From Pseudomonas nitroreducens TX1 (GTDB taxonomy: Bacteria; Pseudomonadota; Gammaproteobacteria; Pseudomonadales; Pseudomonadaceae), in NCBI RefSeq assembly GCF_000313755.1, contig NZ_AMZB01000121.1, positions 186,001 to 250,000 of the forward strand: 64,000 nucleotides of DNA, read 5' to 3'. The translations under genes and the position numbers were made by a program. The notes beneath the pieces are model-generated. The model made no database searches, was not told where the DNA came from, and saw only the letters and a program-made list of their open reading frames with translations. Positions 1,961 through 38,189 of this stretch are shown in pieces (the stretch's first letter is position 1; the number at the start of each line of letters is the position of its first letter).

Positions 1961-2024
1961 GGAAGAGTGCCTCACCGGTTGTTGATGAGGCACATCTTCT
2001 GAGCGGCACAACGGTGCCAGAACC
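1961..2024 (-). promoter_or_regulatory. Repeated promoter/leader element, copy 1 of 18
   Basis: On the minus strand: box 1 GGTTCTGGCAC, then 18 bases, then box 2 (GAAGATG). The leader folds into an 8-bp stem, GTGCCTCA with TGAGGCAC, whose 3' arm holds the only Shine-Dalgarno-like GAGG before the ATG at 1960. Family consensus seen here: GGTTCTGGCAC, 18-base spacer ending in GANN, then (A/C)T, usually ATGG. Confidence 0.75.
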
Positions 2025-2156
2025 AGGGGAAGCAAATTCAGTTCAGGCCCGATTTTCCAGGCTAGAGATGGACGGGTAAGCCATAGGACGCCGGCACGAA
2101 ATGACTCGACGATTGAGCTAATCACCGGCTGACCGGTTGATCAATTCACACGCTGA

Positions 2157-2891
2157 TCAGCCAGGCGTTTTGGACATCCCGGCTGGGTAATACAGCCATT
2201 TTTGATGGGGCGCCGCGACCTGCTGAATGAGGATGCGAGTCCGTCGCTTGTCTAAAACTTTGACGGCGCCGAAGTGTTTTTGCGAAGGCTCCCGGAACCA
2301 CAGTTGTTGGCCCTTGTGAATCTCGCGCATGCTCAGCGGCTTCTCGCCGGTTGATAGCAGTCCCGACAGCCTGTTCAAGCCTTCCTGGCTGGCCCTGATT
2401 TGGCGCAGGTCAATGTTGAACTTCATGCACTGGTCATGAAGCGCGGCCCTGATCTTCTCACCTTCTCCACTGGCATGGATGCGGTCGAGGATGGCGTAGA
2501 ACTCCTGGTTGTGCACTGAACCATCGTAGCGGCGGCCCAGAATGACCTGGACAAAATGGCCAAACTCATGCGCCACGGTGTGAGCGAGGATGTTCAGCAG
2601 GGTCAACTCACCGCCGTAGTAGCCGCGCTCATGGAGTTCTCGGGAGGTGAGCCAATTACACATCGTCTCAGGATCAGACTTGCTGACCACCATTTGCTTG
2701 CCGTAAGTAATCGTCATGCTGGCGTCATTGGCAGTCGCACGCCGATGTTTGAGGTATGTGTGCTTACCGCTACCTACACGAAAATCCAGATCAGCCGAGG
2801 GGTTGTGCTTGGTTGCCCAACCTCTTCGGGGCTTCCACAGAACTTCATCTGTGACCGTGCACATTGCATTGGCGACAATACGGGGATTCAT
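2157..2891 (-). CDS. SprT-like zinc metallopeptidase domain protein
   Basis: 244 residues. The motif AHEFGHFVQ (HExxH, about residues 105-113) is followed about 15 residues later by an HNQEFY segment that could supply the third ligand. This arrangement fits SprT/WLM-like zinc metallopeptidases. There is no signal peptide, so it should act in the cytoplasm. A C-terminal segment (170-240) resembles the beta-rich zinc or nucleic-acid-binding tails of such proteins, but no CxxC pair is present. Start chosen at 2891, preceded by AGGAATCC. It is last in the run 4530-2157. Substrate unknown. Confidence 0.65.
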   Translation of the reverse strand: MNPRIVANAMCTVTDEVLWKPRRGWATKHNPSADLDFRVGSGKHTYLKHRRATANDASMTITYGKQMVVSKSDPETMCNWLTSRELHERGYYGGELTLLNILAHTVAHEFGHFVQVILGRRYDGSVHNQEFYAILDRIHASGEGEKIRAALHDQCMKFNIDLRQIRASQEGLNRLSGLLSTGEKPLSMREIHKGQQLWFREPSQKHFGAVKVLDKRRTRILIQQVAAPHQKWLYYPAGMSKTPG

Positions 2892-2901
2892 GCACGGATT
2901 C

Positions 2902-3507
2902 CTAGAACTCGATGCGTGTAGGAGCATCGACCAGTTTGAATCGGTACGAAATGACAGGGCCGCGCTCGATGCCTCCCCAGGCCACGATCTGCTCTGAGGG
3001 CTGGTCCGGCACTACCAACGTCCGCATAAGCAGAGTGAGTTCTTTCGCAGCATCCAGCAGCCACAGAGGCACGTAGTCCGGTTGAGGTCGGACAGCATCG
3101 ACAAAGAGTAGGTAGGCGCGGTGAAGCTCGACGCTGTATGCGAGGCCGACATACTTTTGCCCGATCAGCCAGTGCATGCACACCAACTCGTAGCGCTCAC
3201 TGTCCGCGCCGATACCATCCCCGAGGGCGTGCCGATACTCGGTCAGCATCGTCTCAGCTTCCGTCTGCGCGTCAGCCATCGGACTTTTGCCCTTGCCGCT
3301 GGAAGTGATGTTTCGCCGTTGGATGTCGGCGTCGAGATCCTCAGCGACTTTGATCCCCCATTCCACCCACTCCCGGCGCTGCCAGTAGCAGGGCTCATCA
3401 TCAACCGGCGGCCTGACTTCGTACTGACGGCCGCGGTTAACTGAGCGCATTGCGCCGATCAGCTCCTTCACTTTCTCCCGCGAAACAAGCACCAGGTCGT
3501 TGCTCAT
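2902..3507 (-). CDS. Hypothetical protein (201 aa)
   Basis: Soluble 201-residue protein with an AAGGAGAC Shine-Dalgarno before the ATG at 3507. It is mostly helical, with a Trp-rich stretch around residues 40-55 and a central helical part around 95-145. It sits between a 325-residue unknown gene (46 bases upstream) and the SprT-like peptidase gene (10 bases downstream), so the three likely form one operon. No recognisable family. Confidence 0.72.
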   Translation of the reverse strand: MSNDLVLVSREKVKELIGAMRSVNRGRQYEVRPPVDDEPCYWQRREWVEWGIKVAEDLDADIQRRNITSSGKGKSPMADAQTEAETMLTEYRHALGDGIGADSERYELVCMHWLIGQKYVGLAYSVELHRAYLLFVDAVRPQPDYVPLWLLDAAKELTLLMRTLVVPDQPSEQIVAWGGIERGPVISYRFKLVDAPTRIEF

Positions 3508-3552
3508 TGTCCAAGTCTCCTTAGGGAGTGACTAGGATAACGACCGGCCGGG

Positions 3553-4530
3553 CTAACATCGGCCCAAAACGGGGGGCTCTGTTGCCGCGGCGGCTTGATT
3601 ACGTGCGGAGGCCCGCCGCTTCGGGTCGGGAATGTCCCTCCATCCATTGGGCAGAAGGCAGCGCAAATCGTATCCAAGGACGAACAGACCAGCTTCGAAT
3701 GCGTGGCACCGTTCGCCAATGTCCAGCTCCGATCCGCCGTACCAATTCGTTTCCTGAAGCACGGCCCGAATGATCCAGCCGAGGATCAGCTGGCGCTGGG
3801 CCCAAAGATGCGGTCTTTGATAGCTCAACTGGGGCGTGCCCTTGTAGCCCAAGCCGAGTAGTGCAGGGTTGCGGATATGCCGGAGGTGCTCGGCCTTCAC
3901 ATCTTCTAGGCCTGGTCCCCAAGCGAAGCACCGGTGGTTGGTACTGCCGACGCCCTCGCCTTCTGCCCGGTAGAGGTGATAGAGCATCGCGATCGCTGCA
4001 CCGACACGGCCGTCATAGATCGGGGAACCATCCGGGCAAAGCAAGGCGTACACCTTCGTCAAGCCGGAGTTGAACATGTAGAAGACATTCATGCTCAGAT
4101 CTCTTAGCTTCTGTTTGCCGGCAGGGTTCAGTAGTGCAGCACGAACAATGAGGTGCTCCACCAGCTTGTTCTTTAGCTGCAGCTCCTCCAGAACCTTCTT
4201 TGAGGTCTCGACGTTCCCCCAATCAAGAATCGCGGAGCAGACTTCTAGTGCTTTCAGGTCGTTCCCGGCTTGAACTGCAGCGCGAAGATCAGCTCGGTAC
4301 CCTTTGAGCAGGGCGGAGACTGTTGCCCAATCTCCTTTCCATTGGTACTTCGCCGTGACCGCTTCAATCCCTTGGACGCTCTCGTCAATTTCCTGAGGGA
4401 CGAAGGAGCTCCGCTGAAATTTCAGGTGCGCCTGAATGGTGGGGAGAGTCTTGATCAGCCAGGTGACGAATTGCTCGATGTCAGGCTGGGCGAGGAAGTC
4501 TGTTTGGTTGAAGTCCGATCGCCGTTTCAT
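3553..4530 (-). CDS. Hypothetical protein (325 aa)
   Basis: 325 residues from the ATG at 4530, which has AGGAG 6 bases upstream; a further in-frame ATG at 4569 lacks a good site. The N-terminal 130 residues are predicted to be helical. The central part (about 165-260) is rich in Tyr, His, Trp and Gly. The C-terminus is Ala/Pro-rich and probably disordered. No signal peptide or known catalytic motif. First gene of the 4530-2157 operon. Confidence 0.72.
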   Translation of the reverse strand: MKRRSDFNQTDFLAQPDIEQFVTWLIKTLPTIQAHLKFQRSSFVPQEIDESVQGIEAVTAKYQWKGDWATVSALLKGYRADLRAAVQAGNDLKALEVCSAILDWGNVETSKKVLEELQLKNKLVEHLIVRAALLNPAGKQKLRDLSMNVFYMFNSGLTKVYALLCPDGSPIYDGRVGAAIAMLYHLYRAEGEGVGSTNHRCFAWGPGLEDVKAEHLRHIRNPALLGLGYKGTPQLSYQRPHLWAQRQLILGWIIRAVLQETNWYGGSELDIGERCHAFEAGLFVLGYDLRCLLPNGWRDIPDPKRRASARNQAAAATEPPVLGRC

Positions 4531-4622
4531 GTCCGCTCCTTGGATGAGAACCGGGGAGGGTACTCCCAAGCATGTCCTCCGGCGAGGGGCTTACGCCGTC
4601 GAAAGCCCCCACTTCGAATTGA

Positions 4623-5246
4623 CTACGACGCCAGCGGCTGGCGCATTCGGCTCCAGTCGATGTGTTCGCCCTGGGCGTAGGCCTCTTTGATGCCCTCCAC
4701 TGTGTAGGTGCAGTAGCCTTCAGCGAGGGTGTCTCGAACCTGAGCCTGGACACCTTCAGGGCCTACCGGTCCTTTGCTGGTTCTAAGCTCGGCCTGGCCG
4801 TCGTACATGGGACACTGCGATACAAGCGCCAGCGCGGCCGCCGGCGAAATACCATCCGCCTTCTGGCCAGACACAATGCTCAATACCGCCTGGTCGCGGA
4901 AGATGCAGACCGCGCTCCGAGAACTGAGGAGCAATTCAAACGCCCGCATTTTCGCGCGGGAGGTCTGCATCTCAGACGATCCTCCATGCTCGAGCTTCGC
5001 AGTGGACACGGCACGGCGGTATTCCAGGGCCGAGAGGCCAGAGAAGAGAAACTCGGCGGCAATCGCATAGCCGGCCGCCAGGCGCGGGTTCCGGTCGCAG
5101 GTCTTGTAGGAGAGTAGAAGCACCGCCCGGTAGCCGCGCCGCGGAGAGGTGATTTCGCAGATTTCGGCACGTACCCGGAAGTCGCGGGTCATGCCGAGCT
5201 CATGGTAGAGGTGGAAGCCGGTGTTGATGTTCAGCTGGTTGATCAT
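4623..5246 (-). CDS. Hypothetical protein, element-controlled
   Basis: 207 residues from the ATG at 5246, directly below the regulatory element at 5247-5312. It is a mixed alpha/beta soluble protein with a Cys-containing central part and no membrane segment. A possible weak hairpin (GGGGCTT with AAGCCCC) lies between it and the next gene at 4530. No family recognised. Confidence 0.7.
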   Translation of the reverse strand: MINQLNINTGFHLYHELGMTRDFRVRAEICEITSPRRGYRAVLLLSYKTCDRNPRLAAGYAIAAEFLFSGLSALEYRRAVSTAKLEHGGSSEMQTSRAKMRAFELLLSSRSAVCIFRDQAVLSIVSGQKADGISPAAALALVSQCPMYDGQAELRTSKGPVGPEGVQAQVRDTLAEGYCTYTVEGIKEAYAQGEHIDWSRMRQPLAS

Positions 5247-5312
5247 GGTGGATGGGCCCTGTGCCTCTTGAAGTTGAGGCTATCGTCAGGTCCATCTAGG
5301 CGTGCCACCACC
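5247..5312 (-). promoter_or_regulatory. Repeated promoter/leader element, copy 2 of 18
   Basis: Box 1 is the GG variant (GGTGGTGGCAC). After 18 bases box 2 reads GACGATAG. The leader stem is GCCTC with GAGGC around an 8-base loop. It precedes the ATG at 5246. Confidence 0.7.
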
Positions 5313-5321
5313 AGCCGGCAG

Positions 5322-5663
5322 TCAATACCACTCTGTGGTGCCGTCCTTCTGCCGGCGCTCGCCGGAGTGTGCTTCTCGGTGCCAACCTTCGGGGCGGGTT
5401 TCGTAATCGTCCCAGTCGTCCAGGGCGCATAACGTGGCCATCCGGTCGCTATAGCACCAGCGACGGGAATAACTCTGACGGGTGAGGTCGGCAATGATCG
5501 CGTAGGTAAACATGAACTTCATGACACCGGCGACCCGACCGCAAGGGAAGCGCTTCGCTTCGAGCAGGAAGCCAGTGGCTTTCATCCCCTCGATCTCGGC
5601 ATCGGTAGGAGGCGGCAGGATGGTGGGGTGACTCCCCAGCACGTTTGTTGGCTGTACTCTCAT
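5322..5663 (-). CDS. Small hypothetical protein (113 aa)
   Basis: 113 residues from the ATG at 5663, which lies 5 bases after the stop of the L7/L12-like gene, so the two are probably co-transcribed. The sequence has a Phe/Ala-rich centre and a Trp/Tyr/Asp-rich C-terminus (residues 75-113), without signal peptide or metal motif. Function not recognised. Confidence 0.62.
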   Translation of the reverse strand: MRVQPTNVLGSHPTILPPPTDAEIEGMKATGFLLEAKRFPCGRVAGVMKFMFTYAIIADLTRQSYSRRWCYSDRMATLCALDDWDDYETRPEGWHREAHSGERRQKDGTTEWY

Positions 5664-5668
5664 TGAAG

Positions 5669-5833: not shown

Positions 5834-5916
5834 GTTGTAGTCCTCAATCTGGAGTTGGTTTCGACCTTGAATGGCCGTCAGAGGATTTGAAAGCTCGGTG
5901 GAGTGTGCCACCAGCG
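5834..5916 (-). promoter_or_regulatory. Repeated promoter/leader element, copy 3 of 18
   Basis: Box 1 is CTGGTGGCAC; after 18 bases the sequence is ATCC, preceded by TCAA rather than GANN. The leader is longer (about 70 bases from box 1 to ATG) and no strong hairpin is evident. This is the weakest member of the family. Confidence 0.5.
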
Positions 5917-5962
5917 CCGATGGCAGGTATCCGCAAGAGATGCGCTGGAAAAAGTCAGGCCT

Positions 5963-6457: not shown

Positions 6458-6468
6458 TTAGTTCCCTC

Positions 6469-6969: not shown

Positions 6970-7003
6970 GCCTTTCTCCTTGATGGGCCATGCCAGGCCC
7001 GGA

Positions 7004-7547: not shown

Positions 7548-7615
7548 GGGATTCTCCTGGCAAGTTCTCGTTTCTGATGTGGCCATGTTCGAGCCGTACC
7601 GTATGTGCCACCACC
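7548..7615 (-). promoter_or_regulatory. Repeated promoter/leader element, copy 4 of 18
   Basis: Box 1 GGTGGTGGCAC, 18 bases, box 2 GAACATGG. The start of the leader (ATGGCCACATC) is nearly the same as in copy 12. No strong hairpin; the CAGGAG ribosome site is free. Confidence 0.65.
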
Positions 7616-8432: not shown

Positions 8433-8493
8433 GGGTGCATCCAAGTTCGTTGAGATGCACCCATGATCAGAGCCGATCGGGTGTGCCAGAACC
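8433..8493 (-). promoter_or_regulatory. Repeated promoter/leader element, copy 5 of 18
   Basis: Box 1 GGTTCTGGCAC, 18 bases, box 2 GATCATGG. The leader forms the longest stem of the family: 11 bp with a 12-base loop, ending in the start codon of the gene at 7725-8432. Confidence 0.78.
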
Positions 8494-9448: not shown

Positions 9449-10150
9449 ATGGTCAAGATCTACGTCGACGCGCGCGAAATCGCCTCGCGCATCCCAGATG
9501 CCCTGCGTGAGCTGGGGGCAGAGGTGGAGATCGTAAACTTGGAGGTGGGCGACTACGTCCTGAGTGCAGACCTGGTCGTGGAAAGAAAGACTGCCTCAGA
9601 CTTTTGCATCAGCGTCACGGATGGCAGGTTCATCAACCAATCCTCAAAAATGGACCTGAACTTCAAGCGCAAGCTCTGGCTGATCGAAGGGGATGTTTTT
9701 GCGGTGCGAAGCAAGATCGCGCCCGAAGCTCTGGAGGGAGCCCTGAGCTACCTCGCCGTTGTCCTGCAACAAACGGTGCTTTGGTACAAGGGCAGCAACA
9801 GGGCCGCGGCGATGATCTACAGGCTCGCCAAGCATGAGCAAGACGGCCTGGGATACATCCCGGCAGCGCGCAAGGGCAAAGTACCCGCCGGCGTCGGCCA
9901 GTCTCTGTTCACCCTGGAAGGACTCAACGGCTGTGGCCCGGTCGCCGCGCGCAAATTGCTCGATCACTTCCGCTCCGTGCATGCGGTAATGAACGCCTCG
10001 GTTGAGGAGCTGTGCGCAGTGAAGGGCATCGGCCCAAAGAAGGCCCAGGCCATACACGACGGGATTCACTTCCAGGTTCCGGAGGGCGAGTCGATTGAGG
10101 ACCAACCATCGTTGCTGGCCGATCCCCCGGCCACCGAGCCACTGGTCTGA
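9449..10150 (+). CDS. ERCC4-family nuclease with HhH DNA-binding tail
   Basis: 233 residues. The N-terminal half has the ERCC4/XPF-Mus81 signature: GDYV (34-37) and VERKTASD (44-51), matching the metal-binding GDx(n)ERKxxxD catalytic core. The C-terminal part (about 150-210) has two helix-hairpin-helix motifs (GLNGCGPVAARKLL and AVKGIGPKKAQAI), as in Hef/XPF-type structure-specific nucleases. It probably cuts branched or flap DNA in the cytoplasm. It lies on the plus strand in a minus-strand region and is followed by a strong terminator, so it is its own transcription unit. No helicase domain is present. Confidence 0.85.
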   Translation: MVKIYVDAREIASRIPDALRELGAEVEIVNLEVGDYVLSADLVVERKTASDFCISVTDGRFINQSSKMDLNFKRKLWLIEGDVFAVRSKIAPEALEGALSYLAVVLQQTVLWYKGSNRAAAMIYRLAKHEQDGLGYIPAARKGKVPAGVGQSLFTLEGLNGCGPVAARKLLDHFRSVHAVMNASVEELCAVKGIGPKKAQAIHDGIHFQVPEGESIEDQPSLLADPPATEPLV

Positions 10151-10590: not shown

Positions 10591-10591
10591 A

Positions 10592-12685: not shown

Positions 12686-12787
12686 CTTGGTTCTCCCTTT
12701 GGTCGCCCCTCTTGGAGCGCAGCAGACTCTCTGTGGCGTATCACTGAAGCCCGGTGATGATTGCTCGGGCTCCGCCGTGCCAGAACC
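12686..12787 (-). promoter_or_regulatory. Repeated promoter/leader element, copy 6 of 18
   Basis: Box 1 GGTTCTGGCAC, 18 bases, box 2 AATCATC. The leader is the longest in the family (about 90 bases from box 1 to ATG) and holds a weak ATCAC/GTGAT stem far from the start codon. Confidence 0.6.
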
Positions 12788-14709: not shown

Positions 14710-14790
14710 CTGGTCGGTTCCTGTGACTGAGGTTGATGTGGTCTGGTGCTGCGTGACCACATCTTCGTCTCGTCTAGCTGTGCCAGAAGC
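14710..14790 (-). promoter_or_regulatory. Repeated promoter/leader element, copy 7 of 18
   Basis: Box 1 GCTTCTGGCAC; this copy has 17 bases before box 2 (GAAGATGTGG). The leader forms an 8-bp stem GATGTGGT/ACCACATC with a 13-base loop, about 28 bases before the ATG, so here the ribosome site is outside the stem. Confidence 0.7.
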
Positions 14791-15928: not shown

Positions 15929-16012
15929 TACGAGGTCCTTCTACGTCTCTATCGGCGCTGTGGCTTGAGTTGGTAGCGAAGATGATCAGGCCGATGCGGG
16001 TGTGCCAGAAGC
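15929..16012 (-). promoter_or_regulatory. Repeated promoter/leader element, copy 8 of 18
   Basis: Box 1 GCTTCTGGCAC, 18 bases, box 2 GATCATC. Longer leader (about 73 bases to the ATG). An ATCGGC/GCCGAT pair spans box 2 and is therefore less convincing as an RNA stem. Confidence 0.65.
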
Positions 16013-17167: not shown

Positions 17168-17225
17168 AGTGGGCTCCTTTATTCGATGGAGCCCAGCGTA
17201 GAGGTAGAGGGGGCGTGCCAGAACC
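17168..17225 (-). promoter_or_regulatory. Repeated promoter/leader element, copy 9 of 18
   Basis: Box 1 GGTTCTGGCAC, 18 bases, box 2 TACGCTGG. The leader stem GGGCTCC/GGAGCCC (7 bp, loop ATCGAATAAA) contains the GGAG ribosome site, six bases before the ATG. Confidence 0.78.
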
Positions 17226-17653: not shown

Positions 17654-18475
17654 TCACGCTGCCAGCATGTCGAGTTGCTCCGGCTTGGCGTAGCGGCCGG
17701 GAGCGATGCGGCGGGCTGTCATCTGGCACACCTTGCGCACCTGGGCCTTCCAGTTCGGATTTTCGGTAGGGCGGCGATCTGCGACGTAGGAGTAGATTTG
17801 CTCCAGGGACGCTTCACCGTCGAACAGGTCAAGCGCATCAGCGACGATGGCGCGCCAGGTCGCCGGGCCCTGCTTCATTGCCTCGTGGATGTCCTTGGGC
17901 AGGCTCTGCAGGTACGCCAGTTCGTGATAGAGGCTAAGGCCGACCATCAGCCGCTGCTGGTCCTTGGTGAAGGTCACGAATGCCAGGGGGTACTTGAGCC
18001 CGTCGTAGAGATTCCGAGGCAGCATTTCCTGCTGAATGGCCCAAAGCTCGTTGTAGCGGCACACGCGCGCCGCGGTCTGTAGGAAGTAACAGGGCAGAAC
18101 GAAGCCCACTTGGCCGTCATCCATCAGCATGCCGTGCACGCGATCGAGCAGGCGCTCGATGAACTTGGTCTGGAAGGGTGGGTTGCCCAGCACCAGAGTG
18201 GGCCGCTCCTCGACCTCGATGTCGAAGAAGTCGCCGGTGACCACTCTCCGGCCAGTCAGCTCGCGTGCTTGCTGGGCCAGGCTCGGGTCGATCTCAATCC
18301 CCATTGCAGGGACATGAGCCGGGATTGCCTGGAGGAACCGGCCAGGCCCACAGGTCGGTTCTACCACGAAGTCGGTACCGGTGAGGTGGCTGAAGTTTTT
18401 CCGGACGATTGCTGCTGCGGCCCAGGCGGGCGTCGGATACTGGCCGAGGGCGATCTGGGTGATGTCGTTGCTCAT
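17654..18475 (-). CDS. N6-adenine DNA methyltransferase-like protein (orphan)
   Basis: 273 residues. Motif I appears as VEPTCGPG (about 38-45) and motif IV as NPPF (about 96-99), as in class I SAM-dependent N6-adenine methyltransferases. An early YPTPAWAA segment fits the family's N-terminal substrate-binding motif. The C-terminal 80 residues (Trp-Lys-Ala-Gln-Val-Arg) look like a small helical DNA-binding part. No restriction endonuclease is adjacent, so it is an orphan that may protect plasmid DNA from restriction. Start at 18475; its AGGA lies in the leader hairpin. Confidence 0.82.
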   Translation of the reverse strand: MSNDITQIALGQYPTPAWAAAAIVRKNFSHLTGTDFVVEPTCGPGRFLQAIPAHVPAMGIEIDPSLAQQARELTGRRVVTGDFFDIEVEERPTLVLGNPPFQTKFIERLLDRVHGMLMDDGQVGFVLPCYFLQTAARVCRYNELWAIQQEMLPRNLYDGLKYPLAFVTFTKDQQRLMVGLSLYHELAYLQSLPKDIHEAMKQGPATWRAIVADALDLFDGEASLEQIYSYVADRRPTENPNWKAQVRKVCQMTARRIAPGRYAKPEQLDMLAA

Positions 18476-18539
18476 GGGGTGAGTCCTGGTCCGTGATTTT
18501 CTGGACTCAGGATCAGGGCAGGTCACCAGTGCCACCACC
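18476..18539 (-). promoter_or_regulatory. Repeated promoter/leader element, copy 10 of 18
   Basis: Box 1 is the GG variant (GGTGGTGGCAC), 18 bases, box 2 GATCCTGA. Stem TGAGTCC/GGACTCA (7 bp) encloses the AGGA ribosome site of the methyltransferase gene. Confidence 0.75.
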
Positions 18540-20470: not shown

Positions 20471-21469
20471 TCAGCCAACTTTAACTGCTGGCGCAGTGTC
20501 GCCCTGGGACGATTTGAACACGGCGCGCAGGTTGGCCAGAGCCTTTGCCAGTTCCGGGAGATCCAGGTCAGCGCTGGTCAGGGTCAGTTCCAGCTTCACG
20601 CTCTCCGGAGCGCTAGCCATGAACGGCAGAACCTTCTCCAGCTGATCGGCCAGCTGTGCCAGAACCGGGGCAGCGACGCTGATGTCCTTGCGGCCGTACA
20701 GAGCAGACGTCGCGGCGAGGGTCTTCGGGGTGATCTTGTCGGAACCGTTGCGCTGCGCCTGGGCGAGTTGCTCCTGCATGTGCACGACGGTGTCCTGGCC
20801 TGTGGCCTTGCAGTGGCGCTCAGCGTTTAGGGCGGTAGTCACCGAAGCCTGCCCATTGGCGACCATCTCTTGCACCTCCGGAGCAACCTTGAGGAGGTCC
20901 AGCATCTTGCGCACGTGGGGTTCTTTGCGGCGGATTGCCTTGGCTACGCCCGCCACTGTGAAGCCGTGATCTTCGATCAGCTCGCGGTAGGTGTTGGCGA
21001 GGTCAAGCGGAGAGACCTGTACCTGTTGGTTGCTTACCAGCTGGCGCACCAGTTCGTTGGCGCGGCCACCTTCAACCTGGTTGACCCACACGCGCTTGAT
21101 ATCGGCGCCTTCAGAGATTGCCAGGGTCAGACCTGCGTAGCGGGTGAAGCCGGTCACCACGCGCAGCTTGCCGTTCTCAGCGACGACACCCATCGGCTCG
21201 ACGTAATCGCCGGCGGCGTAGGAGTCGGCGAAACCACGCACCGCCTCTTGGTCGAACTCGCTGCGGATGGCTTCGTCGATGTTACACACCAGGAGGCCGC
21301 AGGGCATTTCGAAGGCATTGTTGCGCTTCGGCTCCAGGTCCAGTCCCAGCTGCCCGCTGGTGATCATCTTTTTGGCCGTGTCGTGAATGCTGCGCAGAGA
21401 GTTGCAGCCAGCCAGGGCGGTCATGGCGATATCGGAGATCATGTTGCTGGCGATGGTCTTGGTGGTCAT
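20471..21469 (-). CDS. ParB-like DNA-binding protein
   Basis: 332 residues. Residues about 95-130 contain VVTGFTRYAGLTLA, resembling the ParB N-terminal (sulfiredoxin-like) box GxRRxxA with the second Arg replaced. Residues about 150-205 (SPLDLANTYRELIEDHGFTVAGVAKAI followed by a recognition helix) match the KorB/ParB/Spo0J helix-turn-helix. The C-terminal part is helical. No ParA gene is next to it, so a regulatory (KorB/NOC-like) role is as likely as partitioning. Controlled by element copy 11. Confidence 0.75.
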   Translation of the reverse strand: MTTKTIASNMISDIAMTALAGCNSLRSIHDTAKKMITSGQLGLDLEPKRNNAFEMPCGLLVCNIDEAIRSEFDQEAVRGFADSYAAGDYVEPMGVVAENGKLRVVTGFTRYAGLTLAISEGADIKRVWVNQVEGGRANELVRQLVSNQQVQVSPLDLANTYRELIEDHGFTVAGVAKAIRRKEPHVRKMLDLLKVAPEVQEMVANGQASVTTALNAERHCKATGQDTVVHMQEQLAQAQRNGSDKITPKTLAATSALYGRKDISVAAPVLAQLADQLEKVLPFMASAPESVKLELTLTSADLDLPELAKALANLRAVFKSSQGDTAPAVKVG

Positions 21470-21532
21470 GGCGGTGTCGCTCCTGTTCGGTTGATGTGGT
21501 CAGTTTCGGAGCGACCGACGCGTGCCAGAACC
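21470..21532 (-). promoter_or_regulatory. Repeated promoter/leader element, copy 11 of 18
   Basis: Box 1 GGTTCTGGCAC, 18 bases, box 2 GAAACTGA. GTCGCTCC, in the spacer, is complementary to GGAGCGAC around the ribosome site, but the 5' arm lies upstream of box 2, so it may not be transcribed. Leader text CCACATCAACCGAAC resembles copies 4 and 12. Confidence 0.72.
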
Positions 21533-22011: not shown

Positions 22012-22083
22012 GGCGGCTTCTCTCTGTCGAGTGGTTCGGTTGCGATGTGGCCATCGTCTCCTGAGCCTTCGCGTGCCAGAATC
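22012..22083 (-). promoter_or_regulatory. Repeated promoter/leader element, copy 12 of 18
   Basis: Box 1 GATTCTGGCAC, 18 bases, box 2 GACGATGG. A short CGATG/CATCG stem sits at box 2. The leader start ATGGCCACATCGCAACC is close to copies 4 and 11. Confidence 0.7.
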
Positions 22084-28434: not shown

Positions 28435-28492
28435 GTGAGAGCTTCCTGAAGTGTTAGAGGTAGTCTCAGTCGGGATCGACCGTGCCAGAAGC
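28435..28492 (-). promoter_or_regulatory. Repeated promoter/leader element, copy 13 of 18
   Basis: Box 1 GCTTCTGGCAC, 18 bases, box 2 GAGACTAC. Weak TGAGA/TCTCA pairing; the AGGA site is probably free. Confidence 0.65.
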
Positions 28493-28750: not shown

Positions 28751-30865
28751 ATGTCTTTCGAAGACAAGTTCTCGTTATCCGTAGACGATTTCGAATCAAA
28801 ACGCTACACGAAAGTCGCCAAATTTATCGCGAGCAACTGGCCTCTTAAAGAGAAAATTAAACTCTCAAAGGCTCAGGAGATTCTTGCTGTAACGCTCGGT
28901 TATGAAGACTTTCATGACGCCCAGAAGTCAGCATTAGCTCAACTCCCTTCCGATGTAATTCGTTTGACATATGGGGCAAATAATCGGCTCAGGAAGTTCT
29001 TGGATTTGGACTATTACGGCACCGAAGAATTCCTGCAGTCATGGCCTTTGCATTTGCTCGGGCGTTGGAATATGGCCGGCAAGCCATGCATGTTGGGTAA
29101 AGAAACGATCGAGGTCGCAATTGAGCACTTCACTGATGGTTTTTCTAGTGACTTGCGTGTATCCCAAGACTTTCATGTTAAAACCACCCCGTGCGCCCTA
29201 TCATTAATCGCGATTGAACTGAAGAATGCATCGGACTCTGACCTTCTGATGCCATTGAAAGAATTGCTTTCAAGCCAGAGCCAGCAGGCTGTGTTTGATT
29301 GCGCGATGAAGTTTTTCTTTAGTGAATTCCTGTGGCGCAATGATGAACTAATACGTAGCGGCTCTGGTATGAGCATGGAAGATGTTAGAGCGCTCCCAAG
29401 GGATCGTTCATCTTTTCCTGATCTATATTCTGCTCTAGAGAGTCTTTACACCGTTTGGCTGAACGAACCGGCTGTGAATAGGTTCTTCAGGGACAAATCA
29501 GAATCCGGTTTCTATTTCGATGATCCGCACCCTGGCCGACTGAGTGATGCGAAGGTGAGCATTATTCCCCATGAGTCGGGAAGTTATGAGGTTCGTTTGC
29601 AGCGAATTCCGCTTGATGATTCACCGTTCAAATCTTTCAGGTGGACTGCACGTTCTTTAGATACCTCAGGATTGTCTCTGGCTGAAGCTGAGGGCGGCTT
29701 TGTGGTGGGTGCTAAAGAAAACTGGGTTGGCTCCGAATTGATTGAGGCCACTGAAGACTGTGGAGTGGAGGCTGTGTACGCCTATCTCAAGGCTGCTGCT
29801 GACTCTTCAGTTGAAGAAGGGAATAAAAAGAGGCTGACGCCAACCAGAATTGGCACAGGATTTATATTTGAATGGTCCAACCTGCTTACAATCAATTATC
29901 TTGAGCGAAATGATCGATGTGAGCCAGGTCGAGGTTTGGATTTGATTTCAGCGGTAATCAAGGATTTGAAGCGGCGTTACAAGCGCGACATGCATGTTTG
30001 TGGGGTGGTCGATCCTTATCAATTCCGTGATTCGGCTCGCAGGATTAAAAGCCTCGAAGATAGCAGAATTAAAACGGCTAACAAAATTTGCCAGCATCTG
30101 AAGCGGAATATTGGGTTTGGCCCTGGCGTAAGTTGGGTATTCTTTACGCCTGGCATAGATCAGCGTGAACCCAAAGAATACTACTTCGAATCTGTAGTTT
30201 CGGGATTCAAAAGTCATGTCGAAACCACCAAAGCTGATGACGGACCCTTTATGATGGTTTGGCACCTATGGCTTGCTCCAGACTTCTCCAGGGTTCAAGC
30301 TGGTCTGGATCAGAAGCCATGGATCAACCATGACAAAGTAGATTTTCAAGCATTGAAAGAAGTGCTTGCTGAGGAGTTCCAATTCGGACCTAAAGTCCGG
30401 ATTCGAGTCGCCAATGACACTATTGACCAGGTCACTGTGCATAAGCGCCAGTTCTCAGGCAATGAAGCGTCGACGCGTTGCTCGGATTTCGCCAGGGTAC
30501 TCCTTGAAGAAGCACACACACAGACTGGTGATGTAATCGATATTCGTAAGCGGTGGAGCTCTCTCCACGCGATGCCCGAACGCCGAGCATCTCCACCCCC
30601 GATGCTCATACCCATTGTCATCGAAGCGGATGATTTCGAGGATGCGCTTTTCTGGGTAGCGCAATCCAAGGGAGTCTTGGGTATTCGATCAGTAGACTTT
30701 AGCCTTGCCTTTACCAAAGAGATGACTGCTAAGGATCACGAGGGGACCCTGACAAAGGGCTTGCATCAGATCCTTGCGGCCCAGTTCGGGATTGCTTACC
30801 AACCTTTCACACTCCTCGACGAAGGTGCATCGGACACGAAACCGGAGTGGGTTAAGCACAATTGA
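28751..30865 (+). CDS. Large AT-rich unknown protein with glyoxalase-associated-like helix motif
   Basis: 704 residues. Residues about 35-60 (KLSKAQEILAVTLGYEDFHDAQK) match the layout of a short helical motif (L-S-x-AxExLAxxLGYxxWH) often attached to glyoxalase-superfamily or plasmid proteins of unknown role. The remainder is long, charged and Phe/Tyr-rich, with no catalytic motif I can name. Base composition is clearly lower in GC and codon use different from all neighbours, suggesting recent acquisition. It is transcribed against the array and has a weak hairpin after its stop. Confidence 0.7.
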   Translation: MSFEDKFSLSVDDFESKRYTKVAKFIASNWPLKEKIKLSKAQEILAVTLGYEDFHDAQKSALAQLPSDVIRLTYGANNRLRKFLDLDYYGTEEFLQSWPLHLLGRWNMAGKPCMLGKETIEVAIEHFTDGFSSDLRVSQDFHVKTTPCALSLIAIELKNASDSDLLMPLKELLSSQSQQAVFDCAMKFFFSEFLWRNDELIRSGSGMSMEDVRALPRDRSSFPDLYSALESLYTVWLNEPAVNRFFRDKSESGFYFDDPHPGRLSDAKVSIIPHESGSYEVRLQRIPLDDSPFKSFRWTARSLDTSGLSLAEAEGGFVVGAKENWVGSELIEATEDCGVEAVYAYLKAAADSSVEEGNKKRLTPTRIGTGFIFEWSNLLTINYLERNDRCEPGRGLDLISAVIKDLKRRYKRDMHVCGVVDPYQFRDSARRIKSLEDSRIKTANKICQHLKRNIGFGPGVSWVFFTPGIDQREPKEYYFESVVSGFKSHVETTKADDGPFMMVWHLWLAPDFSRVQAGLDQKPWINHDKVDFQALKEVLAEEFQFGPKVRIRVANDTIDQVTVHKRQFSGNEASTRCSDFARVLLEEAHTQTGDVIDIRKRWSSLHAMPERRASPPPMLIPIVIEADDFEDALFWVAQSKGVLGIRSVDFSLAFTKEMTAKDHEGTLTKGLHQILAAQFGIAYQPFTLLDEGASDTKPEWVKHN

Positions 30866-31564: not shown

Positions 31565-31631
31565 GGGATGGCTCCAGGACAATTCGTTGTCGATGGAGCC
31601 ATCTTCTGGTGGACTTGGGCGTGCCAGAACC
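31565..31631 (-). promoter_or_regulatory. Repeated promoter/leader element, copy 14 of 18
   Basis: Box 1 GGTTCTGGCAC, 18 bases, box 2 GAAGATGG. Stem ATGGCTCCA/TGGAGCCAT (9 bp) starts exactly at box 2 and contains the Shine-Dalgarno; the ATG follows 2 bases later. Confidence 0.8.
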
Positions 31632-32686: not shown

Positions 32687-32747
32687 CTGCGGCGGCTCCT
32701 ATGAGGTGGAGCCGCCATTCTTTCGGCAGGAGGGTCGTGCCAGAACC
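32687..32747 (-). promoter_or_regulatory. Repeated promoter/leader element, copy 15 of 18
   Basis: Box 1 GGTTCTGGCAC, 18 bases, box 2 AAGAATGG. Stem GGCGGCTCC/GGAGCCGCC (9 bp, loop ACCTCATA) includes the GGAG, six bases before the ATG. Confidence 0.8.
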
Positions 32748-33807: not shown

Positions 33808-33879
33808 TGAAAGTCATCCGTGAGGGGGAAGCGACGGTAGCGCTTGATCAGGGTGTTTGTTGGCGCTCGGTCGGCGATG

Positions 33880-34308: not shown

Positions 34309-34321
34309 GTACTGCTCCTGA

Positions 34322-34612
34322 TCACTTCACCGGCTGTCCTTGGCCTGCCGCGGCTTTCGCCCGCGCGAGCTGGATGTGGGGTGCCACACGCTCGGCCTCG
34401 AGGTCCATGAAGATCACTTCGTCAGGCATCGACTTCACGTGGTTGATGATGTAGCGGCATGGCGACTTCTGGTTGATCACATCAAAAATCGACTGCCGAT
34501 CCCTTCCCTCTACTTTCTTGAGGAGGCGCTTTCCAGTTCTCACAACTGCAGCGTCTGTCCTGTGGATGGTGGCGGCCAGGGCCAGATTGAGGATGATGTC
34601 GATGGGGCGCAC
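34322..34612 (-). CDS. Small basic hypothetical protein (96 aa)
   Basis: 96 residues starting at GTG 34612 with AGAGG upstream. Helical and basic in the first half (residues 20-45), with a single Cys at CRY; Ala/Gln-rich tail. It lies 13 bases before the winged-helix gene, so probably in one operon with it. No family recognised. Confidence 0.6.
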   Translation of the reverse strand: MRPIDIILNLALAATIHRTDAAVVRTGKRLLKKVEGRDRQSIFDVINQKSPCRYIINHVKSMPDEVIFMDLEAERVAPHIQLARAKAAAGQGQPVK

Positions 34613-34676
34613 AGGGAGCCTCTGGGATGGATTGCCGGATGCCCGGATGGTAACGGGCAGCCGGTATAGGTCAGGG

Positions 34677-35450
34677 TCAAATGGCGGGGCTGGAATCTGC
34701 GGGGCGGGCGGTCACAGCCGCTGCCAGATCTGGCTCTGCGAAGAACTCTGCGATGGCATCCTCACACTCGATGGCATGCGGTCCAGCCCAATCGCGCACC
34801 CAGTCAGGGGCAAGTCGGGCGAGGCGGAGTGTGTCCGACTCATCGCTGTCGTCAGTGAGGTGCAGCGCCAGGTCGCGGCCCATCGCCAGAATCTCCTCGG
34901 TCACGTCGATCTGGGTGGGGCCGGGGTCAACGGCAATTGCGTAGCCGTTCTGCCAGGCCTGGGGGTGGAAGATCACCAGAAGCCGACGTTCCGATGCTGG
35001 CGCTTGAACGCCGGCATCAACGCCCTGGTTCTCGGCTTGAGCCTCGGCATCAGCCTTCCAACGCCATAGCGACGGTACTTGCTCCAGCAGAAGGATCACT
35101 TCGCGGCCCTGGGACTGCTCGTTGTGGCTGTAAGCACTGCAGATCAGGTCGAGCACCTCCAGGTCCAGCGTCTCGGCCGCCGCGCATAGCTGATCGCTAC
35201 TGTCGGTCACCAGGTGGGGATGCAGCTGCACAACCTCATCCAGGGAGCCAAGGTAGGCCTTGAGTGTGTCATCGGCTTCCAACCGCGGCGCGAGCTGGTT
35301 CATGTAGTGCTGGAGGGCCTTGCGCTTGGTCTCGAAGTACAATGGGCCAATCAGCGCGTCCATCACCGGCTCTCCCAATGGGTAGTCGGCGTAGACCAGA
35401 CACCAGGGGTGGCCGTTCTGCTGCGCGGTGGATTCTTGAGCGTGGGTCAT
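34677..35450 (-). CDS. Acidic hypothetical protein, element-controlled (257 aa)
   Basis: 257 residues from the ATG at 35450, strongly acidic (many Asp/Glu around 190-240), mostly helical. Two Trp-containing segments near residues 140-150 and 220-225. No signal peptide or metal motif. Function unknown. Confidence 0.7.
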   Translation of the reverse strand: MTHAQESTAQQNGHPWCLVYADYPLGEPVMDALIGPLYFETKRKALQHYMNQLAPRLEADDTLKAYLGSLDEVVQLHPHLVTDSSDQLCAAAETLDLEVLDLICSAYSHNEQSQGREVILLLEQVPSLWRWKADAEAQAENQGVDAGVQAPASERRLLVIFHPQAWQNGYAIAVDPGPTQIDVTEEILAMGRDLALHLTDDSDESDTLRLARLAPDWVRDWAGPHAIECEDAIAEFFAEPDLAAAVTARPADSSPAI

Positions 35451-35511
35451 GGTTTTCTCCGGTGTGAGTTGATGGAGGCCATGATCAGTTGAGGTGAGGT
35501 GTGCCAGAACC
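35451..35511 (-). promoter_or_regulatory. Repeated promoter/leader element, copy 16 of 18
   Basis: Box 1 GGTTCTGGCAC, 18 bases, box 2 GATCATGG. Only a 4-bp CTCC/GGAG pairing with the ribosome site is available here; the leader carries CCATCAAC, common in the family. Confidence 0.72.
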
Positions 35512-35576
35512 GGGCGGGGGAGCCTGGGCCGTCAGGGTGACGCAGCACCCTGACGGCCTAGCCCAATCGACGTTGG

Positions 35577-36083
35577 TTAGAGGACTACACCTCGCAGCTG
35601 AGTGTTCAGGATCAGTTCCAGATCATCGCCATACAGCTGGCGCAGCGTGGCCTGGGTCTTGTCGGAGTAGGGAGCGAGAACTACGCGGAAGGTCTCGTCC
35701 ACATCACCCTTGATGCGGAACAGCGTGTTGCTCTTCAGCAACCCCTTGGCCTTGTTGAACCACTCCACCTCGTCTGCCATTTGGGGCAGTACCTGTCCCA
35801 GGTACTCGTTGTCGTTGTCGATATCGATGCGGCCTGCGGCTTCGGTGTTGAGCTTGTAGCCCTGCTTCTTCAGCGCGCCAGCCAGCGCCTGCACCTGGCT
35901 TTCATCGAGACCGATCGACAGAGGGTGGTCCTCGCCGGGGTCCTGGATGGTGCCGAGACGCTTCCCGTTGAGATACACGATGCAGGACCAGGCGATGCCT
36001 TGGGGAACCTCCTGCATGTTGAGATCCCTCAGGCGGATTCGCGCCGCAGAGATCGCGTTCAGATTGCTGAGCATGGTTTCCAT
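35577..36083 (-). CDS. Hypothetical protein, element-controlled (168 aa)
   Basis: 168 residues from the ATG at 36083. It is alpha/beta, with WSCIVYLNGKRLGTIQDPGED at about 32-52, then an acidic helical middle (about 60-125) and a final beta-rich part. It resembles small plasmid proteins of unknown function; no name can be given. The ribosome site lies in the leader stem of copy 17. Confidence 0.7.
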   Translation of the reverse strand: METMLSNLNAISAARIRLRDLNMQEVPQGIAWSCIVYLNGKRLGTIQDPGEDHPLSIGLDESQVQALAGALKKQGYKLNTEAAGRIDIDNDNEYLGQVLPQMADEVEWFNKAKGLLKSNTLFRIKGDVDETFRVVLAPYSDKTQATLRQLYGDDLELILNTQLRGVVL

Positions 36084-36146
36084 GGTGAGATGCCTCTGTG
36101 ATTGATGGCATCCCAATCCTCATGGCCACTTTCGCGTGCCAGAATC
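36084..36146 (-). promoter_or_regulatory. Repeated promoter/leader element, copy 17 of 18
   Basis: Box 1 GATTCTGGCAC, 18 bases, box 2 GAGGATTG. Stem GATGCC/GGCATC (6 bp) with the loop ATCAATCACAGA just before the ATG; the 3' arm begins at the only AGAGG. Confidence 0.75.
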
Positions 36147-36164
36147 ACCCCCAAGCAATCGGCT

Positions 36165-36188
36165 GGAGGTGCTCTTCAAGGCACCTCC
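36165..36188 (+). promoter_or_regulatory. Hairpin upstream of the GNAT-like gene
   Basis: Perfect inverted repeat GGAGGTGC/GCACCTCC with an 8-base loop, about 28 bases before the GTG start at 36216. It could be an operator or part of the leader RNA. No T-run follows, so it is not a terminator. Confidence 0.4.
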
Positions 36189-36215
36189 GCAGAACCTCAG
36201 GCAGGAGGAGTCCCC

Positions 36216-37031
36216 GTGTTGGAGCCCCAATCTGATTCGGCGAATCAGAACGTGTCACCCCATGACACGACAGACACTTCAGTCCTGATCGTGGGGGATA
36301 GAAACGACAGGGAGTGTGAGGTTGCCGTTCTCCTACTCACTCGGCGCGAAGTGGTGACATCGAGCGGGGCATCGCTGGAAATCACCTATAAGGCGATCAG
36401 CACCAACTTCCCCTTCAATGGGAAAGGTGGCCTTACCGCTGGCGTGAACAGGGTGAGCAATCCCCCCAAGGCATCCTTTGGTGGGGCGGATGGGCACGGC
36501 AGGAGGTTTATCCACGTGTCTCCGGATGCGCTCCAGGGGCACCGGGTTGGGACGTATCTCCTTTCCGCTGCCGCCCAGTTCCTACGCCAATTCCCAACCG
36601 CGGTGGTCAATTCAATCTCGCTGAGCGAAACAGAGGCCGAAGGCGACAACCTGATCCGAAGGAACAGGGGGTACGAACAGGTGGGGTTCGTATTTGACTA
36701 CAGCGATCCCGAACATCGGACCGGGCGCTCACGCCCAATGACGGCCAGCGACCTGAAGGTGGTCCACACCTGGGAAAAGAACATGACGGAGATGAGGGTG
36801 CCCGAGTACATCAAGCACTTGCGGGCACAGGTCCAGCATCTCAAGGACGCCCAGTCCAACGCAGAAGGAGCGCGGGAACGACTAGCAGCTGAGCTGGCGG
36901 CCGCCCGGCAGTCCCCTCTCCTGTGGGGATTGCGCACCTTTGGGTCGAGTCCCAAGGCACTCTTTGGGGTTGCAGGGGTGCTGATCGCCCTCTGGGGCCT
37001 CTACGAGGCTCTAGGCGGCATGCCCGTTTGA
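36216..37031 (+). CDS. GNAT-like acetyltransferase with C-terminal coiled coil and TM
   Basis: 271 residues from a GTG at 36216 with AGGAGGAG upstream (the frame is open earlier but lacks a site). Residues about 120-155 (HVSPDALQGHRVGTYLLSAAAQFL) resemble the acetyl-CoA-binding V-helix region of GNAT N-acetyltransferases, though the usual Q/RxxGxG/A loop is altered. Residues 200-240 are a likely coiled coil, and about 250-268 a single membrane helix. It may thus be a tail-anchored enzyme. It overlaps the end of the opposite gene by 21 bases. Confidence 0.55.
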   Translation: MLEPQSDSANQNVSPHDTTDTSVLIVGDRNDRECEVAVLLLTRREVVTSSGASLEITYKAISTNFPFNGKGGLTAGVNRVSNPPKASFGGADGHGRRFIHVSPDALQGHRVGTYLLSAAAQFLRQFPTAVVNSISLSETEAEGDNLIRRNRGYEQVGFVFDYSDPEHRTGRSRPMTASDLKVVHTWEKNMTEMRVPEYIKHLRAQVQHLKDAQSNAEGARERLAAELAAARQSPLLWGLRTFGSSPKALFGVAGVLIALWGLYEALGGMPV

Positions 37032-38135
37032 ACCGGCGTAACGGGCGGGGAAATCGTCGAACTCATCACCACGGGCCCGCGCAGGGGCTTGCTGGGTCAT
37101 TTCCGCTCTTAGCAACAGGATCTTGCCGAACGCTGTGTTCTCGGCGTCATGGTACGAAGGCCATGTAGGTTCTGCCTCGGCCAACTCCATATCCAGGGAT
37201 AGGACGAAGTTCACCAGCTCGAATCCGTTCCGGAGTTCATGGCGATCGCCAATCTCATGCCAGTCACCCAAGTCGATCACCAGCTTTGCCCCCTTGCGTT
37301 TGGGAATGGCGCTTCGATCTACCTGCTTGACCCTGCGCGTAATGGTCGCTTGATGGTAGGACGGGAGAGCGTCCAGAACCGAAGCCAGGGTCTGAATTCG
37401 AGCGAAGCGTGACTGCCAGGCCTCGCGAGACGCCTGAGCCTGCGCCCGGTCCCGCTCCGCTGCCCTGCGTTCGTACTCCGCCGGCGGCATCATCCCGCTC
37501 TGCACCTGTTTCAGCCAACGCTGGTCCTCCAAGGGCAGATAACCAGGCCGGGTGGAGAGCAGCACGGTCAACAACAGGGATTCTTGACCATGCTGCCCGA
37601 GGTGTGAGTAGAGGTCAGCGACGGATGTTGTTGGACACAGCACCCAATCGGGGGTCAGCGCTGAAATTTCGGTTCTGATCCTCCGGCAGGACTGTTGCGT
37701 GTCCTCCAGACATGAAACCAGAAGATCGGGCTTGAATTTCCCCGCCTGAAAGGTGTGCGGTAGCCGGGCCACACGGTAGGGGAGGGCGTCTGCCTTGAGG
37801 GATGGCGCGGTCAGCTTCATCCCGCCTGGGAACGTGAGGCTATAGCGGTTGCCAAGCTTGCTTCGAAGCACCTGGTCAAACGCTTTCGCCTCGACCTGAA
37901 TCTGGCGAATCCAAGGCGCCACGGCAAAGCAGCGGTCGAAGTGATCGAACTGACGCTTGGTGTATGAGCCGCCGCGACCTGCGGGGATGATGAACCACCC
38001 GGCTTGTACGGCCTCAACCACCGCGCGGACTGATGCCGGGGTGGAGTTATCGCATTCGCCCCTACCGGCGAGCAGCCGACGTGCAGCCTGTAGGCATTCC
38101 GGGTTGGTCAGCGCTTCACGATTGATCTGATGCAT
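37011..38135 (-). CDS. Hypothetical protein, element-controlled (374 aa)
   Basis: 374 residues from the ATG at 38135. It starts helical and basic (residues 10-60); the middle (about 90-170) contains several Cys/Leu segments. Residues 215-260 are Arg/Gln-rich and helical. The part around 300-350 is acidic and Trp/His-rich. No signature allows naming. Its start codon lies in the arm of a short leader stem (copy 18). Confidence 0.7.
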   Translation of the reverse strand: MHQINREALTNPECLQAARRLLAGRGECDNSTPASVRAVVEAVQAGWFIIPAGRGGSYTKRQFDHFDRCFAVAPWIRQIQVEAKAFDQVLRSKLGNRYSLTFPGGMKLTAPSLKADALPYRVARLPHTFQAGKFKPDLLVSCLEDTQQSCRRIRTEISALTPDWVLCPTTSVADLYSHLGQHGQESLLLTVLLSTRPGYLPLEDQRWLKQVQSGMMPPAEYERRAAERDRAQAQASREAWQSRFARIQTLASVLDALPSYHQATITRRVKQVDRSAIPKRKGAKLVIDLGDWHEIGDRHELRNGFELVNFVLSLDMELAEAEPTWPSYHDAENTAFGKILLLRAEMTQQAPARARGDEFDDFPARYAGSNGHAA

Positions 38136-38189
38136 TTCGGGTCCTCCGTCATGCCTGCATCCTCTCGCGTGTATCCGAGTGCCAGAACC
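38136..38189 (-). promoter_or_regulatory. Repeated promoter/leader element, copy 18 of 18
   Basis: Box 1 GGTTCTGGCAC, 18 bases, box 2 GAGGATGC. Pairing of GATGCA with TGCATC places the start codon itself in the stem, with GGAGG in the loop. It has the shortest leader (44 bases from box 1 to ATG). Confidence 0.7.

Follow-up and report, generated by a model that had tools for sequence, protein, structure and literature searches.

We found that a two-box element repeated along a stretch of Pseudomonas nitroreducens TX1 DNA very likely represents the -35 and -10 boxes of promoters that are read by an RpoD-like sigma factor encoded on the same replicon, as judged from sequence comparison. The stretch analyzed (the window, 64,000 nucleotides) covers bases 186001-250000 of a 291,036-bp contig (NZ_AMZB01000121.1, here called C121) in a genome of 6.69 Mb and 138 contigs. 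The sole plasmid record matched in a megablast search with a 10.3-kb query was that of the 425-kb pPniHBP1_1 from Pseudomonas nitroreducens, at 89.1% identity across 75% of the query, and from this kinship C121 is read as presumable megaplasmid sequence.

An initial annotation of the window had described 18 copies of the element, 14 with a TTCTGG box and four with a variant, at a constant spacing except for copy 7, which was one base shorter. All 18 copies were recovered at the same spacing, every one on the minus strand, and the recount gave 14 TTCTGGCAC and 4 TGGTGGCAC boxes; copy 7 (14788) is likewise shorter, and for this reason a fixed-spacing matrix lists 17 sites in the window. Past 38189, the window contains no matrix site. 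On the whole of C121, the minus strand has 48 occurrences of the TTCTGGCAC or TGGTGGCAC word and the plus strand has 3. The conserved columns are G at -2, the nine-base box 1, the A and T of box 2 at positions 24 and 28, and CA at positions 34-35; the spacer and flank columns are near background, and the -35 part comprises about 11 conserved bases. The check proposed in the initial annotation, a matrix scan of the whole contig and of related plasmids against controls, gave about 50 sites on C121 with controls near zero. At a matrix score of 12, C121 has 57 minus-strand and 2 plus-strand sites, compared to 0 in the reversed sequence and 1, 0 and 3 in three Markov copies, while at a score of 8 there are 70 sites versus 10-12 in the controls. 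With a refined matrix, 53 sites were found on the 291-kb contig (51 minus, 2 plus) and none in the reversed sequence. Across eight plasmids (490 matrix sites), each plasmid has 40-92 sites versus 0-4 in its reversed control, and 458 of the 490 lie on the majority strand of their own plasmid. The exact pattern TTCTGGCAC-N15-A-N3-T has 33 occurrences on C121 (0.29 Mb) versus 3 across the remaining 137 contigs (about 6.4 Mb).

The second box does not depend on how the sites were chosen. When C121 sites were selected by box 1 alone, A24 and T28 were present together in 36 of 45, and every other offset tried gave at most 11%; in ten plasmids the same selection gave A24 and T28 in 72-84% of sites and at most 25% for the other offsets tried. 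The sites also hold a narrow position relative to genes. A Shine-Dalgarno sequence, a start codon and an open reading frame (ORF) follow within 30-130 bases at 46 of the 53 C121 sites, compared to 26% of random positions, with start codons at a median of 60.5 bases from the first base of box 1. In the eight plasmids this holds for 386 of the 490 sites (20-29% of random positions), with medians of 59-64 bases. Within the window, the start rule placed a start for 14 of the 17 matrix sites, 52-82 bases away; for the sites at 5310, 8491 and 12785 the rule gave no start, yet an ATG is visible downstream. A perfect box 1 at 20664 (minus strand), inside the ParB-like gene, has no box 2 and is probably a chance or coding match.

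When +1 is placed at the A of the CATC motif (position 35), the first T of box 1 comes to lie at -35, a 17-bp spacer separates TTCTGG(CAC) from GANN(A/C)T, and the conserved A and T take positions -11 and -7, with the predicted start 7 bases after the -10 element. As aligned, the boxes have a sigma-70-family layout with letters of their own. The initial annotation saw no match to sigma-70 promoters, which holds for the letters (TTCTGG/GANNMT versus TTGACA/TATAAT) but not for the geometry, that is, the 17-bp spacer, A-11, T-7 and the start 7 bases past the -10 box. The strong -10 letters, A-11 and T-7, are shared with host sigma-70 promoters, and the TTGACA/TATAAT letters are absent. The -24 box of sigma-54 promoters is TGGCAC. 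A sigma-54 promoter (GG at -24 and GC at -12, 10 bases apart) was rejected, because no conservation was found at the -12 place after TGGCAC (positions 14-17), in agreement with the initial annotation. A common operator was also ruled out, because the inverted-repeat arms vary between genes. Taken together, the best-supported reading remains the one first proposed, a promoter recognized by one factor and a plasmid-wide regulon, with about 50 sites on the contig rather than 18 in 36 kb.

The candidate factor is encoded outside the window by a sigma-like gene at C121:75826-77388 (521 aa). Its product is 100% identical to the pPniHBP1_1 counterpart, which adjoins dnaN and is annotated "sigma factor-like helix-turn-helix DNA-binding protein". 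Regions 2 and 4 are present by Pfam (Sigma70_r2, 25.9 bits with a cut-off of 24; Sigma70_r4, 53.6 bits with a cut-off of 24.1), and the PDB sequence matches are SigB, SigA, RpoD and RpoS. The predicted fold of an 81%-identical relative (L123; mean predicted local distance difference test score 72) aligns to RpoD from residue 104 to about 605, spanning region 1.2, the non-conserved region and on to region 4, with large full-length root-mean-square deviations that make the relative domain placement unreliable. Model residues 1-41 are mostly of low confidence and outside the aligned range, and region 1.1 is without a match. An extracytoplasmic function (ECF) sigma factor, which has regions 2 and 4 only, was rejected, since the RpoD-type matches cover region 3 and the fold match also covers region 1.2. 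The fold alignment took six of the seven extra loci used below; L127 was left out as a near-copy of L125. Two further genes were noted: a second, weaker sigma-like match in pQBR103 (L152, 314838-315431; 30% identity), and a small gene directly 3' of the sigma gene in several plasmids (L025, 38944-39297), which could encode a partner or an anti-sigma factor.

The sigma gene and the sites occur together. In a tblastn search, sigma matches were found on 329 plasmid records at E 1e-10, with 134 covering at least 80% of the query; 114 of the 329 have at least 80% identity and 215 have less than 60%. We take the group of sigma-bearing records at 80-90% identity to be IncP-2. Ten plasmids were compared, namely C121, pPniHBP1_1, pQBR103 and seven picked down the tblastn ranking (pRBL16, pNY8709-IMP, pPlaYM7902A, pJBCL41, pSMJS2, pKF715A and P108), and all ten carry the sigma gene and many sites. 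The exact pattern (forward/reverse) occurs 39/3 times in pRBL16, 0/16 in pNY8709-IMP, 48/2 in pPlaYM7902A and 4/30 in pJBCL41; the exact TTCTGGCAC-type pattern is 0/0 in pSMJS2, pKF715A and P108. As a negative control, the reversed pattern gave 0 in every ranked plasmid save one match in pKF715A. In pQBR103, whose sigma gene is 94% identical to that of pPlaYM7902A, 53 exact sites (52/1) were found and the control gave 0. Three Pseudomonas plasmids without a full sigma relative (pCAR1, pMPPla107 and pWW0) each have 0 exact sites; pMPPla107 has two weak partial matches to the sigma factor. Searches of 25 genomes of the genus (E 1e-60) and 398 of the family (E 1e-40) each gave a single sigma relative, in either case the source genome's own. 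A phage origin of the factor was also considered and rejected: the 14 IMG/VR stretches that fit the peptide pattern encode no relative, and none of the 26 phage-collection records that matched the sigma factor did so over 80% of the query.

Of the plasmids chosen, the three without TTCTGGCAC sites carry the most divergent sigma factors (41.3%, 35.6% and 35.5%), and other -35 words were found in them. In unsupervised 8-mer counts, TCTGACAC was second in the list for pSMJS2 (18 seen versus 3.2 expected), and TGACACAG (43 versus 5.6) and GATGACAC (34 versus 6.0) were each first in the remaining two. Motifs built from these words kept the spacing and the CA at +1 and matched 40, 66 and 53 sites, compared to 3, 1 and 2 in the reversed controls. 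In the plasmids aligned, the -35 class follows the region 4.2 helix of the sigma factor, with SKERVRQ for TTCTGGCAC, SPERIRQ for TTCTGACAC and SPQNISR for CGATGACAC, while the -10 box is unchanged across all three classes. Compared to C121, the sigma factors of pKF715A and P108 have 77% identity in region 2.3-2.4 and 22% in the 4.2 helix, and the -10 box is kept and the -35 box switched; in pPlaYM7902A and pJBCL41, region 2.3-2.4 is 61% and 55% identical and the helix 89% and 100%, and the -35 box is the same as that of C121. Eight further related loci were obtained and seven were used, L130 (a Lachnospiraceae bin, 31%, partial) being left out. With four patterns tried, all seven obey the rule, in the first and third classes: five SKERVRQ loci hold TTCTGGCAC sites only (1-2 each) and two SPQNISR loci hold CGATGACAC sites only (2 each). 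Ortholog groups that mix -35 classes and keep the site similarly placed number 24 of 74, in a set made up of site-bearing genes only; the ortholog rule chose an upstream TTG as the sigma-gene start on C121 and pPniHBP1_1, where the annotated start is ATG. All these plasmid sequences are related by descent, so the co-divergence counts are not independent events. A post hoc count at -12 gave 35 G and 28 C in pPlaYM7902A and pJBCL41, whereas five other plasmids together had 103 G but 16 C (p 7.5e-6), and pQBR103, kin of pPlaYM7902A, also moves towards C. The sigma residues changed in pPlaYM7902A and pJBCL41 are presumably at positions that contact -12 in RpoD. The three -35 alphabets offer a natural experiment on DNA reading by sigma region 4.2.

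The sigma gene itself is preceded by a site of the matching class in nine of nine plasmids and seven of seven extra loci read (the L125 and L127 stretches look identical), and in pQBR103 a site at 405942 lies ahead of the sigma gene at 406031. In L124 and in pQBR103 this site is a TAGTGGCAC variant. Where dnaN directly precedes the sigma gene, the site falls at the dnaN end, so coding constraint adds to its conservation; in pSMJS2, pKF715A and P108 the site is intergenic by the annotation. Since its own gene carries such a promoter, the plasmid sigma factor probably activates its own expression. For the rest of the putative regulon, matrix sites on pPniHBP1_1 were compared with the annotation by eye. 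Sites precede dnaN, recA, the sigma gene, genes for the PRTRC ParB, PRTRC protein E and another ParB, genes for DUF6094, WGR, OmpA-family and PD-(D/E)XK nuclease proteins, and many small hypothetical genes. At score 11, no site was found in 280,844-363,023, which holds the transfer genes, or in 41,788-89,851, which holds chemotaxis and pilus genes, and six sites were found in 90,000-280,000. Ten window proteins encoded directly downstream of sites were scanned, and three matched a Pfam family.

We found that the stretch immediately ahead of +1 is complementary to the Shine-Dalgarno sequence of the same gene, a feature absent from the initial annotation and visible, for example, at copies 1, 5, 9 and 14. 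Under the start rule, 374 of the 490 matrix sites have a start; the pairing profile used 254 of these, the openness calculation 372 and the boundary test 317. The left arm at positions 26-36 pairs better with its own downstream stretch than with stretches swapped between sites (z 3.7-12.5 in the eight plasmids). Seven left-arm windows were tried, of which the ones at 26 and 28 gave a strong signal in each of the eight plasmids; the windows at 14 or 20 also gave z 3.1-3.9 in three plasmids. The excess of complementarity runs from about -10 up to -1 and has nearly vanished at +2, and the right arm lies mainly at -11 to -5 from the start codon, which is the Shine-Dalgarno sequence itself. In the boundary test, the per-plasmid excess was z 1.7-7.3 at -6 to -1 and z -1.9 to 0.9 at +2 to +7. 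This boundary at +1 lends support to the predicted start site, and we claim no more than the boundary: a depletion of complementarity at +3 to +7, seen at first, did not recur when the ribosome-site window was narrowed (z -1.9 to 0.9). Among 282 ortholog pairs in which both arms had changed, the own-own stem was stronger than the crossed one in 181 and weaker in 69. The predicted openness of the ribosome site was 0.40 in read-through RNA and 0.57 in RNA from +1. These folding predictions suggest an insulation layer, in which read-through RNA probably folds over the ribosome site and promoter-started RNA does not.

In the mechanism that we infer, the plasmid sigma factor would bind host core RNA polymerase, and transcription would begin 7 bases past the -10 box, on the A of CATC. 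RNA reading through from upstream would hold both arms and fold over the ribosome site, while RNA begun at +1 would be without the left arm and leave the site open, and mainly messages begun by the plasmid sigma factor would then be translated. We are inclined to think that a Pseudomonas megaplasmid superfamily, to which pQBR103 and plasmids from clinical P. aeruginosa isolates belong, expresses its genes through a private system. The RpoD-like sigma factor and the promoter alphabet would be peculiar to these plasmids, and most promoters would carry an anti-Shine-Dalgarno arm, by which host read-through RNA would be poorly translatable and the plasmid proteins would be mainly under plasmid control.

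Several results weigh against these interpretations. The 8-mer ranking of pSMJS2 is headed by another word, and the -35 word is not among the top 28 rows for pNY8709-IMP. The seeds of the three new motifs demanded A and T at the -10 offset, so the -10 box there is not independent; the box-1-only selection, free of this demand, yields the same -10 box. There are only three -35 classes and they follow phylogeny, and any backbone regulator would partly track them. At -12, pNY8709-IMP has one of the two residue changes yet no shift, in a test that was post hoc. For the arm, pSMJS2 alone was weak in the boundary test (z 1.7), and an upstream control stretch in the compensation test was weakly positive (148 versus 100, p 0.014). 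Swapped left arms gave an openness of 0.441 versus 0.401 for the own arms, so the lower read-through openness is partly generic, and in P108 swapped arms were no worse on one count (0.65 versus 0.59).

The boxes could instead be the binding site of a plasmid activator or repressor, with host sigma-70 doing the transcription. The long, strong -35 part resembles a protein-binding site, and co-divergence by lineage is compatible with any backbone regulator; this explanation nevertheless seems very improbable to us, because A-11 and T-7 of box 2 stand at a fixed spacing, with other A-N3-T offsets at no more than 25% in the ten plasmids, and because the -35 letters change with the region 4.2 helix while the constancy of the -10 box goes with region 2.3-2.4. 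That the boxes are a dispersed repeat family or a product of base composition is scarcely conceivable: only their high copy number speaks for it, against near-background spacer and flank columns, 0-4 matches in reversed controls versus 40-92 sites, and the narrow position relative to start codons. It is extremely doubtful that the sites belong to a conjugative leading region and work there as single-stranded-DNA promoters on the incoming strand. Their strand bias (458 of 490) and the presence of inverted repeats fit such promoters, and recA and ParB would suit early establishment; the repeats, however, lie between the -10 box and the Shine-Dalgarno sequence and not around -35/-10, and minority-strand sites precede ORFs of the same strand, as in the ortholog group with C121 170757 and W01 253465.

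The remaining alternative competes with the insulation layer and not with the sigma factor. Here the normal transcript would start at about -6 and the arms would form a 5'-terminal hairpin on it, for RNA stabilization or translational control of the CsrA type. The arms covary in eight plasmids and pPniHBP1_1 encodes a CsrA, as such a hairpin would lead one to expect. We consider it unlikely, since transcription from -6 would begin a single base past the -10 element, the complementarity excess stops at the predicted +1, and CA at -1/+1 is conserved. Translational insulation remains our preferred explanation of the arms.

The coordinates of the promoter copies and of two genes of the putative regulon are collected in Table 1. 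Four further features of the window were noted on the plus strand. An ORF of 704 aa at 28751-30865 has no Pfam or PADLOC match and lies in the 2-kb bin with the lowest G+C content of the first 52 kb (0.524); pPniHBP1_1 has no annotated plus-strand coding sequence at the matching place, and the ORF may be an insertion. An ERCC4/helix-hairpin-helix nuclease-like gene (9449-10150) lies within the minus-strand array, a response-regulator diguanylate cyclase gene (38266-39885) lies at the edge of the regulon region, and an actin-like gene (47422-48477) corresponds to ParM/StbA in pPniHBP1_1. A TraG-type ATPase gene was found at 59285-62233. Separately, the GGAGTGTG/CACACTCC word is over-represented in three (C121, W02 and W05) of seven plasmids counted.

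Table 1. Predicted promoter copies and example regulon genes, in window coordinates
Feature	Coordinates	Strand	Remarks
Promoter copy 1	1986..2024	-	TTCTGGCAC from 2022; -10 GAAGAT; +1 A
Promoter copy 2	5274..5312	-	TGGTGGCAC variant from 5310
Promoter copy 3	5877..5915	-	TGGTGGCAC variant from 5913; lowest matrix score in window, 18.9
Promoter copy 4	7577..7615	-	TGGTGGCAC variant from 7613
Promoter copy 5	8455..8493	-	TTCTGGCAC from 8491; top matrix score in window, 45.5; long inverted repeat around +1
Promoter copy 6	12749..12787	-	TTCTGGCAC from 12785
Promoter copy 7	14753..14790	-	TTCTGGCAC from 14788; spacing one base shorter
Promoter copy 8	15974..16012	-	TTCTGGCAC from 16010; precedes DUF2807 protein gene
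Promoter copy 9	17187..17225	-	TTCTGGCAC from 17223
Promoter copy 10	18501..18539	-	TGGTGGCAC variant from 18537; precedes DUF6094 methyltransferase-like gene
Promoter copy 11	21494..21532	-	TTCTGGCAC from 21530; precedes ParB-like gene
Promoter copy 12	22045..22083	-	TTCTGGCAC from 22081
Promoter copy 13	28454..28492	-	TTCTGGCAC from 28490
Promoter copy 14	31593..31631	-	TTCTGGCAC from 31629
Promoter copy 15	32709..32747	-	TTCTGGCAC from 32745
Promoter copy 16	35473..35511	-	TTCTGGCAC from 35509
Promoter copy 17	36108..36146	-	TTCTGGCAC from 36144
Promoter copy 18	38151..38189	-	TTCTGGCAC from 38187
ParB-like partition gene	20471..21469	-	Example regulon gene, promoter copy 11
DUF6094 methyltransferase-like gene	17654..18475	-	Example regulon gene, promoter copy 10

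Many genes of these plasmids are annotated as hypothetical only. One sigma factor over about 50 sites would be a single switch, by which the co-action of the genes, their timing and their cost become testable by one removal, and the insulation arm, if real, would be a simple rule that ties translation to the right promoter throughout the replicon. IncP-2 plasmids of this set are reported to spread drug resistance of clinical significance among P. aeruginosa hosts, and the pQBR plasmids serve as models of plasmid cost (PMC13391042, PMC8544851). The former describes a conserved backbone and ancient synteny for pQBR103, pQBR57, pJBCL41 and IncP-2 plasmids, and the words sigma, promoter and regulon are absent from its main text. 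PMC8544851 also describes RNA-seq of Pseudomonas fluorescens SBW25 with pQBR103; neither there nor in PMC9537497 (on pTTS12) is sigma mentioned other than in the name of a supplier. In the open literature searched, no title among the matches listed concerned a sigma regulon of these plasmids, and no paper was found that combines a plasmid sigma regulon with such hairpins.

Each of the two layers has a known counterpart. In the fold-back inhibition of IS10, RNA from an upstream promoter conceals the ribosome site, and RNA from the element's own promoter is without the sequence needed for the hairpin. In phage T4, RNA of I-TevI, I-TevII, I-TevIII and segB that begins at upstream promoters hides the ribosome site, and RNA from their own promoters lacks the hairpin sequence (PMC2988022). 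The layout of these hairpins, with the left arm upstream of the predicted start and the right arm over the Shine-Dalgarno sequence, is found in the plasmids as a statistical excess; the T4 hairpins are described there one gene at a time, whereas the plasmid arms are a promoter feature of the whole plasmid, tied to one sigma factor. SigN (ZpdN) of the Bacillus subtilis plasmid pBS32 is a self-activated plasmid sigma factor with a regulon of plasmid promoters; it is described as weakly ECF-like, its plasmid has a prophage-like element, and it is repressed by LexA and linked to cell death (PMC6751061). The Pseudomonas factor resembles SigN in being plasmid-encoded, in its predicted self-activation and in its regulon of plasmid promoters, and differs in being RpoD-like, in its place beside dnaN or where dnaN would stand, and in its 40-92 matrix sites per plasmid. 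Compared to RpoD-like sigma-70 factors, it is alike in regions 2 and 4, in the fold alignment and in the 17-bp spacer, and differs in the missing match to region 1.1, in letters other than TTGACA/TATAAT and in the long -35 element. A plasmid sigma regulon, as in SigN, and read-through hairpins, as in T4, are thus each known on their own.

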